From: Candidatus Aminicenantota bacterium
Lineage (GTDB): Bacteria; Acidobacteriota; Aminicenantia; UBA2199
Length of the DNA: 47,636 bases
Reading direction: 5' to 3'
NCBI GenBank assembly: GCA_018262835.1
Contig: JADFDP010000011.1
Span: forward strand, 1 to 47,636
Shown here: positions 1 through 18,135 of the stretch, piece after piece
How positions within the stretch are numbered: position 1 is the stretch's first letter
Layout of the letters: the number at the start of each line of letters is the position of its first letter
Program-made: the position numbers and the translations under genes
Notes under the pieces: generated by a model
Told to the model about the DNA's origin: nothing
Seen by the model: the letters and a program-made list of their open reading frames with translations, nothing else
Database searches by the model: none

Positions 1-541
1 TCATCAGCACGCTCTTGAGGCCCACATTGACCCCCAGGCCGATCAGGGTTTCGATTCCCCGGCGGGCGCGGTCAAAGGAGCCGGGCACGCCGGTGATACG
101 GTCATGCGCCTCAGCACTTGCGCCATAAAGGCTGATCTCGACCAGCTTCGGCGGAAATTCCCGGAAAAGCCCGGCGATCTTGTCCGTCACCAGGGTGCCA
201 TTGGTGAAGACCGTAACCAAAAACCCGTTTTGCTTGGCAAATCGATAAATTTCAGAGAAATCCCCGCGCAGCATGGGCTCCCCGCCGGTCAGCAGCAAAA
301 ACAAACAGCCCGCGTCCTTGGCTTCAGTGATGATTTTTTTCCATTGAGCGGTATTCAATTCGAACTCGGCAAGGTCCGGATGATCCTCCCGGGCATAGCA
401 GTGGATGCAGCCGAGGTTGCAGCGGTGGGTCAGCGCCAGGCCGCCCAGAAAAGGGATGCGCTGGCTGTGGATTTTCATGGAGAGCTGCTTCCAGAATTCG
501 CCGTCATTCGGTCCGATTTGCTGCCCGCACGGAAGGCTCAT
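1..541 (-). CDS. Radical SAM protein (possibly SPASM-type), C-terminus cut by window edge
   Basis: Hand translation of the reverse complement from ATG at 541: MSLPCGQQIGPNDGEFWKQLSMKIHSQRIPFLGGLALTHRCNLGCIHCYAREDHPDL...LLLTGGEPMLRGDF...EISLYGASAEAHDRITG. CNLGCIHC is the CxxxCxxC 4Fe-4S motif; GGEP motif present. Start overlaps the PqqD-like stop (ATGA). Not in the ORF track because it runs off the edge. Confidence 0.93.
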   Translation of the reverse strand, partial: MSLPCGQQIGPNDGEFWKQLSMKIHSQRIPFLGGLALTHRCNLGCIHCYAREDHPDLAEFELNTAQWKKIITEAKDAGCLFLLLTGGEPMLRGDFSEIYRFAKQNGFLVTVFTNGTLVTDKIAGLFREFPPKLVEISLYGASAEAHDRITGVPGSFDRARRGIETLIGLGVNVGLKSVLM

Positions 542-834
542 GCCACCTCTTCGACCAGTTCCTTTTTCAGCAATTCGCCGAGGAAATCGCCCGCGTCCAT
601 GCGGGCTTGTTCATACTCGACATCAAAGTTCTCGATGACGTCAGCCAGGATGGCATCCACGGTATGGTCTCCGTCCAGGCGCTGCCAGATGAAATCGGCC
701 AACGGGTTCAAAATAAAAATGCTATCCATGTCGACAGGCCGGCCGCAGACCGGGATCAGAAAAGACTCGCCGGCGATGTGCCGGCCGGCGATCTTGTCCT
801 TTTTCCTGTACTTGGCGGTCAATTTCATTTGCAT
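538..834 (-). CDS. PqqD-like (RRE-type) peptide chaperone family protein
   Basis: 98 aa; ...FILNPLADFIWQRLDGDHTVDAILADVIENFDVEYEQARMDAGDFLGELLKKELVEEV resembles the PqqD winged-helix fold; sits directly before a radical SAM gene. Confidence 0.82.
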   Translation of the reverse strand: MQMKLTAKYRKKDKIAGRHIAGESFLIPVCGRPVDMDSIFILNPLADFIWQRLDGDHTVDAILADVIENFDVEYEQARMDAGDFLGELLKKELVEEVA

Positions 835-3800
835 AGCAAGGCGGGGTCGCCGAGCCAGTTGTATATGTTCAGCATGTAGGGCTTTCCGCCCAGCTGCAGG
901 AAATTCTTCATGGCCGCCAGCCAGGCCTCTCCAGCGGTCGCCGCCTTGCCGCGGAAAATCGCCTTGTAAAACTCCTCTCCGAGCCGCTTGGATTGGGAAA
1001 ACAACGCCGCGCCCGAGGGAGCCAGGCCGGCCGAGATGCCGCCGTTTTCCTTAAGCAGAAGGGCCTCGGACAGGCAAACGACTCCCGGAATCTCAAAGCG
1101 CCCGCTGACGCAGGTGAGCATGACCATGACCGGCAGCTGGCTGCCGTTTTTCAGCGACGGCACGTCAGCGGTGCGAAATATTTTCTCCTTGGCCAATTGG
1201 TCGAGGCCGGCATGGCCGCAATAATTGACCAAGGCCGCGCCGGAATTGAATCCGGCGATGACCCTGGCGCGGATTTCCGCTGCCTGGGCCGCGTTGTTGA
1301 GGTAGATCCGTTCCACTTGATAACCTGTGGCCAAGCTGGCCAGTTCGTCGCTGCCGGCGGCGAAATCGCCGCCGTCGTCGGTGTTGTCGGCGATCATCAG
1401 CATCTTGTCGGTCCAGGGGCCCGTGCCGCTGTCGTAGGCCTTGATCTTATCGATCATGATCTGCAGTTCGTTGTTGGTAACCGCCGGCAGCCGGCCGATG
1501 GCGATCTCCGGGATCCCGTCATTGCCCTTGACGTCTCCAAACGCTTTGTCGGCGGCGCAAAGCCCTTCGGGCGTCTTGGCCAGTATGACCGGAAGCAGGT
1601 TGTCGCCAAGGCCGAGATAGTCCTTGTAGTCGTATGTCCCCTTGCCCATCAGGACCGCGTACTTCACCTTCTTGCCGCCCCACTTGGAATAGGCATAAGC
1701 CAGGAAATCGCGGACGGCCAGGGGGCTGGCCAGGCCGTAGTTGAACGATTCGTAGATGTCTTCCAGGGTGGCGACCAGGGTCGTCAATCCTTTGCTTTTC
1801 CGATAATCGGCCAGCTTCTGCGCCGAGGCCTTGAACTCCTCCGGAGCAATGACCACGTATTCGGCCGAATAAGCGGGCGTGTTCAGGCGCGCGGGCATAT
1901 CGCCTTTGACCGACAGGGGGCGGAGGGCGGCATTCAGGGCGATCACCAGGTAGCGGCTGTTGGCGTTGCTGGCGCCCCGGGGGACAAAGGTGATGCGGCC
2001 GCTGACGTCGGGAGAGGCGCCGGTCACCTGTTTGGGCCGCTCGGGCTTGCTGATGTCCAGGATGATGACCTGGGGCTGGGTGAAGCCGGAAACGGAAACA
2101 ACGGGATGGCCGTCACTGCGGCAAAGCAGGGTATTGTTGTCGGCTTTGTATTGCCGCTGGTAGCTCAAGTCAAAGGATTCCACGTAAAAGACGCTGTAAG
2201 CCGCCCCCATGTCCAGAAGGCCGGAAACCGAGATGGTATTGGCTCCCTCCTTGAGCATGGAGGAATTAAAAGAGATCTTGAACGTATGCGCCTTGGTGCC
2301 GTTCCACCAGGCCCCGCCGATCTCCTTGCCGTTGAGCGCCACCACGGCATGGTGGTCGTTGCTTGCCGCGGTATCGGTGGCGCCCTGCAGCGTGACCGTC
2401 AAAGCAGCCGAACCCGAAGCCGTGACGCCGGGAACATGGACCGGAAAGGACTTGCCGGCGCTTCCCCCCGCCACATAATCCCAGTACCAGATATCGCCCA
2501 GGGGATTGCTGCCGGCAACCATCAGGGCGTAGCGGTTTTCCTCAAAATGCAAGGTTTCCTTGTAAGACTGGCCCGAAGCAGCCGGACTGCTGCTGCCGGC
2601 GCCGATGCTTTCCATGGCCAGGCCGCTGCCCTGCTCCAGCCAGAAAACACTCTGGTCGGTGAAGGTGGTCGACGTGCCTTCATTGTAAAAAAAGGCCCCG
2701 GCTCCGCCGGCATCGGCCAGCCAGGCAATGTCCTTGCCCATACTGGTCATATTCAGTTTTTGCTGCGCAATGTACAGTTTGGCCTGGGCAACGGAGATTC
2801 CCATGCTGCTGGCGATCTGGGCGGCGCTGACATAGAACAATCCACGCCCCTTGACCGTGATCCTGGCGCGTTCTTTACCTTGGGAGGCAGCGGTTGCTGC
2901 ACCCGCTTGCCGAGTCAACTGGCGCGCCTGCAGCCGTTCCAGTTCATAAGCCGATCGTTCGCGGTGGAAGCGTTGGAAGCCGTAAATGTCGCTCGGCATC
3001 TCCTTGCCTGTCTTTTCCGACGGATTCTCCGTTTCCAGGGACAGGGCCGCGGCCCCGAAGGTGATCGTGAACGGCCCGTAGCTCATGGTCCGGCCCAGGG
3101 AGTCGACCTCTTCCAGCCGGTAGACCACGGGCTCGCCGAAAGGGGCGCCCGGGTCGGCCAGGCGGTAGACGCCGCCCTCGGGCGCGTTGGGCAGCGAGGG
3201 CAGGAACTGCGGATTCACCAGCTGGAATTCCCTGCTGTCGCGGTCCTGGCGCCAGAGGTTGAAGCCGACCGTGCCGATTTCGGAGGCGGTATGCCACTCG
3301 ACCGTGGGCTGGCTTTCCTCGGCGCAGGCCTCGAAGCAGGAGACGGCCACCCAGGTGGGGATAGGAGGATTGCCGCCTTCGGTTACGGCCAGGCCGCAGA
3401 GCGGGCCGTAAAGGTATTGCGCCCTGGCGGCAATGACGTTGGTTTCGTCCCTATAGGTAGTCCTTGTTCCATTCGCTGCCGTGCCGGTCACATCCAGGCG
3501 CTGACCTGCCGAAGTAGGGGTTACGTTCACTTCGTAACGCATGGTAACATCTGTGTTGGCGGCGACGATTCCCGGGTTCCCGATGACGTCGCCGGTGCCG
3601 CCGATGGCTGGCTGGGAAGCAATCGATCCTTGCGATATAGACGCGTTCCCGGCGTAAACCACGCCGCCTCCCGGCACATTGGCAATAACCCTGCGAGAGG
3701 TGGCATTGATTCTGACCGCAAAAGGCGTCGGATTGGAGAAGATGACTTCGATTCTCGCCCGGGTGGTGTTGCCGTTGCTTGGCGGATTGGGCCCGGAGAC

Positions 3801-4829
3801 ATGACTGACTTTCTGCAACAGGAATGGCTTGGCCGGCTTGCCGCCGCTGTCATTGGGCAGATAGACGCGGAAGGAATTGGCCTGGGGCTGGGCCGTTGGC
3901 GGAGGATTGGCGGCACTGGAGTTCCCGGCGTAAAAAACCCCGAAATTGGCGGTGGAACCGCCCAAGGTCGTATAAGTGCCGGTCGCGGTCCAGAGACCGG
4001 TCTCACTGTTGTCCATGTCGGTATTGTTGACCACATCGGTCTCAAAATTGGTTATCGGCCTATTCAACCAGACATCATTTGCTGCGCCGGCATAACTGCC
4101 CGTGACCGAGCCGGTGCGGCTGAGATAGGAGAACACGCTAAAGTTGGTACCGTTGTCGCCGTCAAAATCGTTCCAGTCCACGGTACAACCCGACGTGACA
4201 TAGGGGTAAAAAGTGGTGGTCATGGTCGTGGGATTGAGGCCGATCACCCCGAGCGGGATAAAGGAGTCGGCATATACATTGTACTCGGTGCCGCCTGCTC
4301 CCGCTGTGCCGTCATGGGCGCGGATGCCGTAGCCGTTGACGTCGTCGCCGGCAGTGATGGCGGAATTCATCCGCACCCGGAGTTCCCAATGGCCATCGGC
4401 CGGGGCGGCGACAGTATAAATTTGGGTCCAAGTGCTGTCCGCAGCAGCCTGGGTATTGTTGTAAGTAACATCGGCGACATTGCCGCCAGCGGGGTTGTTG
4501 AGATAGTAATTGCACGATGTGTTATAGCCGGTCCCGATCTGCCAGTCTGTATAGTTGGCCACGGCGCCGATGTCGGCATCGTAGATTTCCACGGTCAAGC
4601 GTGCTGTTCCCGGGGGAACTTCGATAAAATAGCGGTAATAGGCGTCCAAGCCGGCGCCCTGGTTGGAACCAATGTAATCGCCGGACGCGGTCTGGGCGCC
4701 GGAACCGATCTGGCGCAGCAACGTGGTCGTCGATGCGGCGAAGCCGGTATCAGTAATGCAAAAAATAAAAAGCGGGATCAAAAAAAACCAAAAAATATAG
4801 TTTTTCATAATGTTTTTTTTTGTTTTCAT
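825..4829 (-). CDS. Secreted C25 (gingipain-like) family cysteine peptidase
   Basis: Signal peptide MKNYIFWFFLIPLFIFCITDTGFA. C-terminal C25 features: YVVIAPEEFKASAQKLADYRKSKGL, ...LVNYCGHAGLD (His), ...MVMLTCVSGRFE (Cys), ...NWLGDPALLCK. Start moved to ATG 4829, behind a GAGG Shine-Dalgarno (ORF track gives 4841). Confidence 0.85.
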   Translation of the reverse strand: MKTKKNIMKNYIFWFFLIPLFIFCITDTGFAASTTTLLRQIGSGAQTASGDYIGSNQGAGLDAYYRYFIEVPPGTARLTVEIYDADIGAVANYTDWQIGTGYNTSCNYYLNNPAGGNVADVTYNNTQAAADSTWTQIYTVAAPADGHWELRVRMNSAITAGDDVNGYGIRAHDGTAGAGGTEYNVYADSFIPLGVIGLNPTTMTTTFYPYVTSGCTVDWNDFDGDNGTNFSVFSYLSRTGSVTGSYAGAANDVWLNRPITNFETDVVNNTDMDNSETGLWTATGTYTTLGGSTANFGVFYAGNSSAANPPPTAQPQANSFRVYLPNDSGGKPAKPFLLQKVSHVSGPNPPSNGNTTRARIEVIFSNPTPFAVRINATSRRVIANVPGGGVVYAGNASISQGSIASQPAIGGTGDVIGNPGIVAANTDVTMRYEVNVTPTSAGQRLDVTGTAANGTRTTYRDETNVIAARAQYLYGPLCGLAVTEGGNPPIPTWVAVSCFEACAEESQPTVEWHTASEIGTVGFNLWRQDRDSREFQLVNPQFLPSLPNAPEGGVYRLADPGAPFGEPVVYRLEEVDSLGRTMSYGPFTITFGAAALSLETENPSEKTGKEMPSDIYGFQRFHRERSAYELERLQARQLTRQAGAATAASQGKERARITVKGRGLFYVSAAQIASSMGISVAQAKLYIAQQKLNMTSMGKDIAWLADAGGAGAFFYNEGTSTTFTDQSVFWLEQGSGLAMESIGAGSSSPAASGQSYKETLHFEENRYALMVAGSNPLGDIWYWDYVAGGSAGKSFPVHVPGVTASGSAALTVTLQGATDTAASNDHHAVVALNGKEIGGAWWNGTKAHTFKISFNSSMLKEGANTISVSGLLDMGAAYSVFYVESFDLSYQRQYKADNNTLLCRSDGHPVVSVSGFTQPQVIILDISKPERPKQVTGASPDVSGRITFVPRGASNANSRYLVIALNAALRPLSVKGDMPARLNTPAYSAEYVVIAPEEFKASAQKLADYRKSKGLTTLVATLEDIYESFNYGLASPLAVRDFLAYAYSKWGGKKVKYAVLMGKGTYDYKDYLGLGDNLLPVILAKTPEGLCAADKAFGDVKGNDGIPEIAIGRLPAVTNNELQIMIDKIKAYDSGTGPWTDKMLMIADNTDDGGDFAAGSDELASLATGYQVERIYLNNAAQAAEIRARVIAGFNSGAALVNYCGHAGLDQLAKEKIFRTADVPSLKNGSQLPVMVMLTCVSGRFEIPGVVCLSEALLLKENGGISAGLAPSGAALFSQSKRLGEEFYKAIFRGKAATAGEAWLAAMKNFLQLGGKPYMLNIYNWLGDPALLCK

Positions 4830-4903: not shown

Positions 4904-5018
4904 TTAAAAAATCGCTAATAAATATTTTCTTTATATTTTAAATTACTACGGTTGTTTATCACGATTCCATGGGACAAACCACCTGTTGCCGTGCCTGAAA
5001 ACAATTCCTCAAAATTGG

Positions 5019-15955: not shown

Positions 15956-17998
15956 TTAAATGCTCTGTTCGTTGGACAGGGCGATGACCTCGCCCAGGGC
16001 GCTCACGGCCTGGATCACGTAGGAATACGACACGGCCCGTTCAAGATATTTGTCGTAAAAGGTATAGCCGCCGTTCTGGATCTCGCTGCCGGCGATTTCC
16101 TTGACGGCCTGAAAGCTGCCGCCGGCAATTTTGCGGTACACCGTGTAGGTTTCGCCGCGGATCGTTGATCCGGGATCCTTTTCCACGCTGAAGTACACTT
16201 CCGCGAAATCCTTGTTCACCACCCAGACGCTGGCCTGCTGGCGTGAAACCGTCATGGACAGGATCAAGCTCTGTGAAAGCGCCCGAGCCAAATTCAGACG
16301 CGCCCCGGTTTTCATCCTGTTTTCCAGCGCTGTCAGGCGGTCGGCGCCGGAATAGAGCCGGCTGATGCGTTTGGAAAGATCGTCACCGGGAAATTGGGCG
16401 GCCAGCAGCCCCAGGGCTGCGCATACGTGCGGGGCGGCCATTGAGGTGCCGTCCTTGATCTCGTAATTCCCCGGGCGAATGACCAGGGTGGCTTGATGAA
16501 TACCACGGGCCTTGATCTGCAAGCCGTCTTCCCTGGCCAGGGAAATGACCGGGATCCAGCTCCCGGCATTGCCCAGAGTTCCGGAAAAATTTCCCGGTTC
16601 ATTGTTATAGATCGCCACAGCCGCGGCCCCTGCGTTTTGGGCGTGGATGGTTTTTTCGTTGAAAGTGATGTCGCCGCGCTCGATCAGGGCGATATTGCCC
16701 CTGACCCCGGCCGGGAAAGAACTCGCGCTCAAGCCGCCTCCGCAATCATAGACAGCGCGGGTCAGGCCGGTGGCGGGGGTCGTTCCCGAAAACTCCAGGG
16801 GGTTGGCGTCAAAAACATCACCTGCCGATTTCAGCCACGCTTCCAATCCCTTGCCGGACAGGACCGTCGAGAGAATGCCCGCCCCCGGGGCGGCCATGTC
16901 GACCCCCTTGGCGCCGTAATTCGAAAAAGACGCGAGCTGGTCATTGCCGTCAGTCGCGGCCACGGCGATGATATTGGGCAGATCGTAGCTGGCCGGATAA
17001 AAGGGGTTGCTATCGTTGTCCGTTCCTTCGTTGCCGGCGGCACAGACCACGGCGATGCCCTGGCTGCCGGCTGCGGCGATGGCATCATTCTGCAGCTGGT
17101 TTTCGCCGCCGCCGCCAAAGGAAGCGTTGATGGCCACCAGGTTGACGCCGTAATCCCGCTTCAGCAAAACGGCGTACTCGATGGCTTCGGTGCTGTCGGA
17201 ATCGTAAATATACATGTCGGGCCGGAAGCCCTTCAAGGCCATGATGCGGGCATTCCAGTTAATGCCGCAGACGCCGGTGCCGTTGTTGCCGACCGCGGCC
17301 ATGGTCCCGGCAACATGCGTTCCGTGGGTGTCGATGTCCATGGGGTCGCTGTCGTTGCGTCCCGAGTTGTCGGAGGCGAAGTCGTAGCCGTATACATCAT
17401 CGCGAAAACCGTTGCCGTCGTCATCGATGCCGTTGCCCGGAACTTCGCCGGGGTTGCGCCACATGTTGGCCGCCAGGTCTTCATGGCGGTAATCGACCCC
17501 GGTATCCAGGACGGCAAGCACCACTCCGGTCGAACCCACGGTTTTTTCCCAGGCCGCCGGAGCGTTGATCTTGCGCATGGCCCAGAGCTTGGCGAATTTG
17601 GGGTCATTGGGCAAACGCTGCAGACGGCGGCGGTAGTTGGGAGAAACGGCCTCCACTTGCGGGCTGGACTGCAGGGCGGCCAGCAATTCACGGGTGGAAT
17701 GGCGTGCCGAACGCATGAGCAAAAACGGGCGCTGGCGCATCTGCGACAGGATACGGAATTCGCGCATGTCGTCCACGGCCAGGTCGGCGGCCAGGACGGC
17801 AGCGGCGTCCAGGGTGGTCCCGGACTTGAATGCCACCATCACCTCCCCTTCCGCATATTGCGGCCCATTGCCCGGGATGCCAGCCGACGCTTGCCGGGCG
17901 CTTTTTTCAGATGCCGGGCCGAGACGGATCCCCAGGACGCCAAATATCAGCACCAAAATTAAAATAAACGGCCAATGGCGGTTTCCGCGTCCGCTCAT
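15956..17998 (-). CDS. Exported S8 (subtilisin-like) serine protease with inserted PA-like segment
   Basis: VLAVLDTGVDYRHEDL (Asp), DTHGTHVAGTMAA (His), DGTSMAAPHVCAALG (Ser); inserted VRGNIALIERGDITFNEKTIHAQNAGAAAVAIYNN looks like a PA domain. Start at ATG 17998 behind AAGGAGG. Confidence 0.93.
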   Translation of the reverse strand: MSGRGNRHWPFILILVLIFGVLGIRLGPASEKSARQASAGIPGNGPQYAEGEVMVAFKSGTTLDAAAVLAADLAVDDMREFRILSQMRQRPFLLMRSARHSTRELLAALQSSPQVEAVSPNYRRRLQRLPNDPKFAKLWAMRKINAPAAWEKTVGSTGVVLAVLDTGVDYRHEDLAANMWRNPGEVPGNGIDDDGNGFRDDVYGYDFASDNSGRNDSDPMDIDTHGTHVAGTMAAVGNNGTGVCGINWNARIMALKGFRPDMYIYDSDSTEAIEYAVLLKRDYGVNLVAINASFGGGGENQLQNDAIAAAGSQGIAVVCAAGNEGTDNDSNPFYPASYDLPNIIAVAATDGNDQLASFSNYGAKGVDMAAPGAGILSTVLSGKGLEAWLKSAGDVFDANPLEFSGTTPATGLTRAVYDCGGGLSASSFPAGVRGNIALIERGDITFNEKTIHAQNAGAAAVAIYNNEPGNFSGTLGNAGSWIPVISLAREDGLQIKARGIHQATLVIRPGNYEIKDGTSMAAPHVCAALGLLAAQFPGDDLSKRISRLYSGADRLTALENRMKTGARLNLARALSQSLILSMTVSRQQASVWVVNKDFAEVYFSVEKDPGSTIRGETYTVYRKIAGGSFQAVKEIAGSEIQNGGYTFYDKYLERAVSYSYVIQAVSALGEVIALSNEQSI

Positions 17999-18135
17999 GC
18001 GCGCCTCCTTGATGGACCTTCCGAAAATTACAACAAAGCCTAACAATCTTTGGCCGCAATGTCAACCAACAAGGAAACAGATCTCCTCCGGCTGCAGGCT
18101 GCTGGAAAAGTCGGGTCTTGGGCTTCCGGGGTTGT

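Follow-up and report, generated by a model that had tools for sequence, protein, structure and literature searches.

The window, a stretch of 47,636 nt from an Aminicenantia bacterium (Acidobacteriota), begins where contig 22 begins. The genome has 2.7 Mb, is distributed over 160 contigs and is 81% complete. At this contig edge we have found genes for a C25 peptidase, a PqqD-like protein and a radical-SAM enzyme, all on the minus strand and with overlapping ends (Table 1). A first-pass annotation had already described these three overlapping minus-strand genes, and the Pfam matches and the sequence agree with its coordinates and domain calls. The partial radical-SAM product matches PF04055 (E=2.8e-22) and is 63% identical over 181 aa to the radical-SAM protein of a related locus (L062). 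The PqqD-like and radical-SAM genes overlap in an ATGA, as previously annotated. Two starts are available for the PqqD-like gene, an ATG at 834 and another at 828 (ATGA); the first gives an overlap of 10 nt with the C25 gene, the value annotated earlier, and the second one of 4 nt. The relatives L062, L065 and L068, in which only the second ATG is present, favor the 4-nt ATGA overlap as the probable one. A WYL regulator gene (WYL/WCX domains), starting at 4952, is divergent from the C25 gene, which probably opens the operon. The arrangement is not a product of chance, since it recurs in related genomes and in other phyla, with C25 on either side.

Table 1. Features of the window and of related loci (window positions unless a locus is named).
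Feature	Position	Strand	Evidence or remark
Radical-SAM peptide maturase	2..541	-	first 180 codons; truncated at the contig edge
Radical-SAM CxxxCxxC (CNLGCIHC)	398-421	-	sequence
PqqD-like RiPP recognition element (RRE)	538..834	-	PF05402 E=4.6e-14
Secreted C25 (gingipain/PorU-type) cysteine peptidase	825..4829	-	1,334 aa, ATG at 4829
C25 signal peptide	about 4737-4829	-	sequence
C25 domain, C-terminal in protein	about 837-1859	-	PF01364 E=2.3e-82, 277.6 bits, cut-off 23
C25 catalytic His1206	1212-1214	-	aligned with gingipain R
C25 catalytic Cys1240	1110-1112	-	aligned with gingipain R
Shine-Dalgarno GAGG of C25 gene	4836..4839	-	sequence; 7-10 nt upstream of ATG
Broken radical-SAM gene (G013)	L066:5857-6806		
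Site of missing radical-SAM gene (G014)	L067:8980-9338		
Other YxxP peptides, C25-linked radical-SAM loci	L226:11975-12157, L238:11835-11948, L240:14532-14699, L234:14241-14411, L237:4980-5144		

The window protein belongs to peptidase family C25, with a Pfam match above the cut-off and an intact His/Cys dyad that aligns with that of gingipain R (E=2e-18). Of 74 C25 proteins, all have the catalytic His and 73 the catalytic Cys. The PorU sortase model NF033707 gave 269.5 bits with the window C25, under its cut-off of 420, and the structure model obtained for the protein is poor (pLDDT 60). The N-terminal part that follows the signal peptide has no domain assignment. An export signal was recognized by a simple heuristic in 40 of 45 C25 genes, and their sequences indicate that C25 is probably secreted in most cases. 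The linked C25 proteins are large and have varied N-termini (S8 subtilase, SdrD_B, DUF11) with a constant C-terminal C25 domain. The C25 protein of L062 has an S8 region as an N-terminal fusion, and a subtilase-like protein encoded apart in the window (15956-18046, minus strand) is 45% identical to this region over 372 aa, so that a fission or fusion of two proteases is possible.

The remainder of the cassette was found in relatives. C25 is followed by PqqD in 8 related genomes, and an intact radical-SAM gene comes next in 6 of them. It is broken in G013 and missing in G014 (Table 1), where C25, PqqD, precursor and kinase are still there; since these are draft assemblies, the losses could be either real decay or assembly errors. 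A second copy in G003 consists of C25, precursor and kinase without PqqD and radical SAM. The full-length radical-SAM proteins of relatives end in a seven-cysteine SPASM-type region (C..GX4C..CX2CX5CX2C..C, invariant in 22 relatives), which corresponds to the SPASM domain that the first-pass annotation had proposed to look for to the left, although the Pfam SPASM model gave them 15.2 bits for a cut-off of 21.5. Of the signatures of radical SAM/SPASM enzymes, the CxxxCxxC is therefore present in the window and the SPASM cysteines in the relatives, this part of the window gene being missing.

Directly after the radical-SAM or PqqD gene, relatives have a gene for a small precursor, in agreement with the earlier suggestion that one lies beyond the left edge, and then a kinase-like gene. 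The Aminicenantia precursors are 57 to 62 aa long with 15 invariant positions in an alignment of 9, including YxKP, R, Q, LG, GCK, two more Cys and a terminal GS. For the family as a whole, precursors have about 60 residues, a [Y/W]xxP leader, an invariant Cys-Lys (CK), two more Cys and a C-terminal Ser. The protein of about 300 aa encoded next has weak matches to TIGR04249 (ScmC) and HprK-related kinases, while its AlphaFold model (pLDDT 92) has HPr kinase/phosphatase (HprK/P) and PEP carboxykinase (PEPCK) as best PDB matches; it is a predicted HprK-fold kinase. Neither the precursor and kinase of the window genome nor the rest of its radical-SAM gene was found in its own, incomplete assembly. 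Its precursor lies in an assembly gap, and the three genes at the window's left edge are the torn end of an operon that continues into precursor and kinase in relatives. Leaving aside the role of C25, we are nearly certain of the cassette itself. The same genome has a second, larger cluster (L072; G000:C71:1-15000) with three radical-SAM genes, two PqqD, two kinase homologues and two S24-type peptidases, containing a precursor-like ORF at 3648-3848 (KWSKPQL...VLAACK...S) and, at 1410-1640, a further YxKP peptide.

Using the kinase alignment as query on one genome per GTDB species, we recovered 80 loci, most of them with PqqD, radical SAM, precursor and kinase. They come from Acidobacteriota (several classes), Nitrospirota, Desulfobacterota, Chloroflexota, Omnitrophota, Myxococcota and others, the family being widespread in the first of these. 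Across phyla, 92 distinct precursors were found, with CK in 92/92, a terminal Ser in 91/92 and exactly three Cys in 71/92, frequencies that are biased because the search profile favors such sequences. None of 45 representative precursors was matched by any NCBIfam or Pfam model. The cassette is also present in Chloracidobacterium (L192). This genus has a member in culture, which makes the modification and the protease substrate open to direct test. One locus, L157, is in a record titled as a Bordetella parapertussis MAG; its C25 groups with those of Nitrospirae and Bryobacterales, and the title is probably that of a mislabelled bin. ABC exporters were found in several Nitrospirota loci, and no exporter was recognized among the few genes scanned near the Aminicenantia cassettes.

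We then counted one locus per distinct precursor, provided that C25 was seen or that the flanks were long enough to judge its absence. C25 is beside the cassette in 46 of 61 judgeable loci, a fraction somewhat inflated since loci with short flanks enter the count only when C25 is seen. This co-occurrence, which the first-pass annotation had proposed to check, involves two positions, upstream as in the window (15 loci) and downstream (31 loci), the downstream frame usually beginning 0.3 to 1.7 kb from the precursor. Among 60 relatives, all 9 genomes with the precursor have a high-scoring C25 and 49 have neither (P=4e-9), and in a phylum sample C25 occurs in 27 of 34 precursor genomes and in 109 of 362 others (P=2e-8); the genomes being related, the P values for linkage are indicative only. 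It could be argued that C25 is an incidental neighbor carried with the cassette, as the 15 of 61 loci with adequate flanks and no C25 would allow. Against this, C25 is on the cassette strand in 45 of the 46 loci (P=1e-12), in both positions and in several phyla. Besides, the stop/start overlaps are kept in relatives, and the window C25 falls, in a maximum-likelihood tree, in a clade of 20 rows (support 100/96) with 18 linked members, two with cut flanks and no unlinked one. We consider incidental carriage highly improbable: a precursor does exist downstream, as foreseen in the alternative that the first-pass annotation had raised against its own proposal, but the accompanying idea of a fortuitous C25 does not hold. 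Considering the locus counts, the phylum sample, the clade and the kept dyad, C25 is a conserved partner of the cassette. Elsewhere in the tree linked and unlinked C25s are mixed, which indicates several gains or losses of the linkage.

C25 loci that were fetched for lying away from any seen precursor are mostly without cassette. A few of them adjoin radical-SAM/PqqD genes and other small YxxP-type peptides (e.g. ...YEKPMIVYRQPLEARASICNPG...; Table 1), which suggests that C25 is associated with several precursor families.

The first-pass annotation had proposed the C25 protein itself, perhaps its C-terminal end, as the substrate of the radical-SAM enzyme, and the position of C25 directly upstream of PqqD, with overlapping genes, would fit this. 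However, the radical-SAM gene is followed by that of a separate, strongly conserved precursor, rich in Cys and with a leader of RRE type, and C25 is found on either side of the cassette and is still linked to the precursor where radical SAM is missing (L067, and L073, which is also without PqqD). The comparison of C-termini gave the same result: the tail, (L)GDPA(L/M)xxK/R, is shared by C25s with and without a cassette, and nothing in it resembles a leader motif. In loci of the window type, moreover, the likely PqqD start overlaps the final C25 codon. The tail was rejected as substrate or precursor core, being an ordinary C25 tail, and there is hardly any chance that C25 or its tail is what the radical-SAM enzyme modifies.

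An S24/S26 signal-peptidase-like gene is present in most cassettes, usually directly after the kinase. None was found beside the Aminicenantia (window-type) cassettes in flanks of up to about 10 kb, C25 being the sole peptidase recognized there, whereas most other loci have an extra one. In the clusters for linear polyphosphorylated peptides (LPP), a protease of S24/S26 type removes the leader with the help of the RRE (PMC13381572). A straight replacement of this enzyme by C25 was rejected in a mutual exclusion test, both being present in 33 of 47 C25 loci, and is possible in Aminicenantia only. Given the S24/S26 gene in most C25 loci outside Aminicenantia, the leader peptidase may be an enzyme other than C25. 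The idea of CK as the cleavage signal of C25 was weakened as well, CK being kept in loci without C25. In some loci the S24-type domain is fused to a GNAT acetyltransferase (L143:4285-5178, L155:4989-5828) or to an NTP_transf_5 nucleotidyltransferase (L144:4836-6464).

We suggest a RiPP-type cassette with the order C25 peptidase, PqqD-like RRE, radical SAM, precursor of about 60 aa and HprK-fold kinase. The PqqD-like protein would bind the leader and present the precursor to the radical-SAM/SPASM enzyme, given that the precursors carry [Y/W]xxP, a motif bound by discrete RREs in lasso and LPP systems (PMC13381572). From the gene content, this enzyme would modify the Cys-rich C-terminal part of the precursor. 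The kinase may phosphorylate the near-invariant C-terminal Ser, judging from its HprK fold and from lasso peptides, in which HprK homologues act on a C-terminal Ser (PMC8498205). The exported product would meet the co-encoded secreted C25, most likely for an extracytoplasmic cleavage, which could be leader removal in Aminicenantia loci and a second cleavage elsewhere. The whole statement, including extracytoplasmic processing by C25, seems to us somewhat more probable than its negation.

C25 could also be an effector, the modified peptide being its ligand, inhibitor or activator, or being coupled to the surface by a PorU-like sortase reaction. This would agree with the leader-peptidase candidate (S24/S26) already present in most C25 loci, with the large, secreted C25 partners in which only the C25 domain is constant, and with its scores, below cut-off, with PorU sortase models. 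On the other hand, many C25 homologues in the phylum are without cassette, and precursors in loci devoid of C25 keep the same motifs. We regard an effector role as a serious alternative, with the odds against it. It is unlikely that C25 works as a cell-surface acceptor or sortase that would cut the leader off the exported peptide, modified by radical SAM and phosphorylated, and attach this peptide to the surface or to the C25 protein; if so, it would represent gingipain/PorU-type peptide coupling outside the type IX secretion system. With the cassette, C25 peptidases outside Bacteroidota gain a definite peptide partner.

The closest published system is LPP, with RRE, HprK and a signal-peptidase-like leader peptidase (PMC13381572, Nat Commun 2026). 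Both have a discrete PqqD-type RRE (PF05402 here), a short precursor whose leader contains [Y/W]xxP and an HprK-like kinase, recognized here by its HprK/P fold match in relatives, the window copy being beyond the contig edge. A signal-peptidase-I-like leader peptidase is missing beside the Aminicenantia cassettes and occurs in most other members. The LPP leader consensus YxxPxVLxHQxIxFETxxS (PMC13381572) is not followed by the present precursors, and only [Y/W]xxP is common to both. The LPP paper names no radical SAM (PMC13381572), while the present cassette has radical SAM/SPASM in most loci and a secreted C25, and its precursors have a three-Cys C-terminal part with CK and a C-terminal Ser. 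An NTP transferase and an ABC exporter are found in only some loci, unlike in LPP. Cassettes are also found near Wzz-type and O-antigen-ligase (Wzy_C) genes (L068:17157-18998, L069:11391-15007), a situation similar to that of LPP clusters, which are reported from capsule loci.

SynChlorMet (NCBIfam TIGR04248-TIGR04251) supplies the nearest named models, ScmC and ScmD being the best ones for the kinase and PqqD, with ScmE/ScmF among the radical-SAM matches. The scores are all far under the cut-offs (ScmD, TIGR04248, 42.6 of 100 bits; ScmC 25-35 of 125; ScmE 102 of 400), and the present cassette differs by a single radical SAM, an identified precursor and C25. That it is merely of SynChlorMet or LPP type is very unlikely, despite these models and the RRE, HprK and signal-peptidase-like protease in common with LPP, considering the Scm scores, the single radical SAM of the window type, the reported LPP core without radical SAM or C25, the different leader and the precursors that match no curated model.

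In open-licence papers we found no relevant work on C25 or gingipains with RiPPs or radical SAM, and C25 is absent from a review on the leader proteases of RiPPs. Neither the combination of radical SAM and C25 nor the precursor family was found in the curated libraries and open-licence papers searched, which supports the earlier view of a peptide-modification system outside the established classes. A RiPP-type family with RRE, radical SAM, HprK-like kinase and C25 is apparently undescribed, although an earlier description outside open-licence papers is possible.

An export signal and a catalytic domain in which His and Cys are conserved are common to the C25 protein, gingipains and PorU. Unlike them, C25 is here genetically tied to a RiPP-type cassette, and since the catalytic domain reaches the end of the protein, a C-terminal type IX sorting domain would have no place. 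With the paeninodin-type lasso peptides, the cassette shares an RRE with a [Y/W]xxP leader and an HprK homologue of the kind that phosphorylates a C-terminal Ser; no macrolactam synthetase (asparagine-synthetase-like cyclase) or B2 transglutaminase-like peptidase was recognized in the few flanking genes scanned. In its components and logic the cassette resembles RiPP systems, the nearest being LPP and the lasso peptides of paeninodin type.
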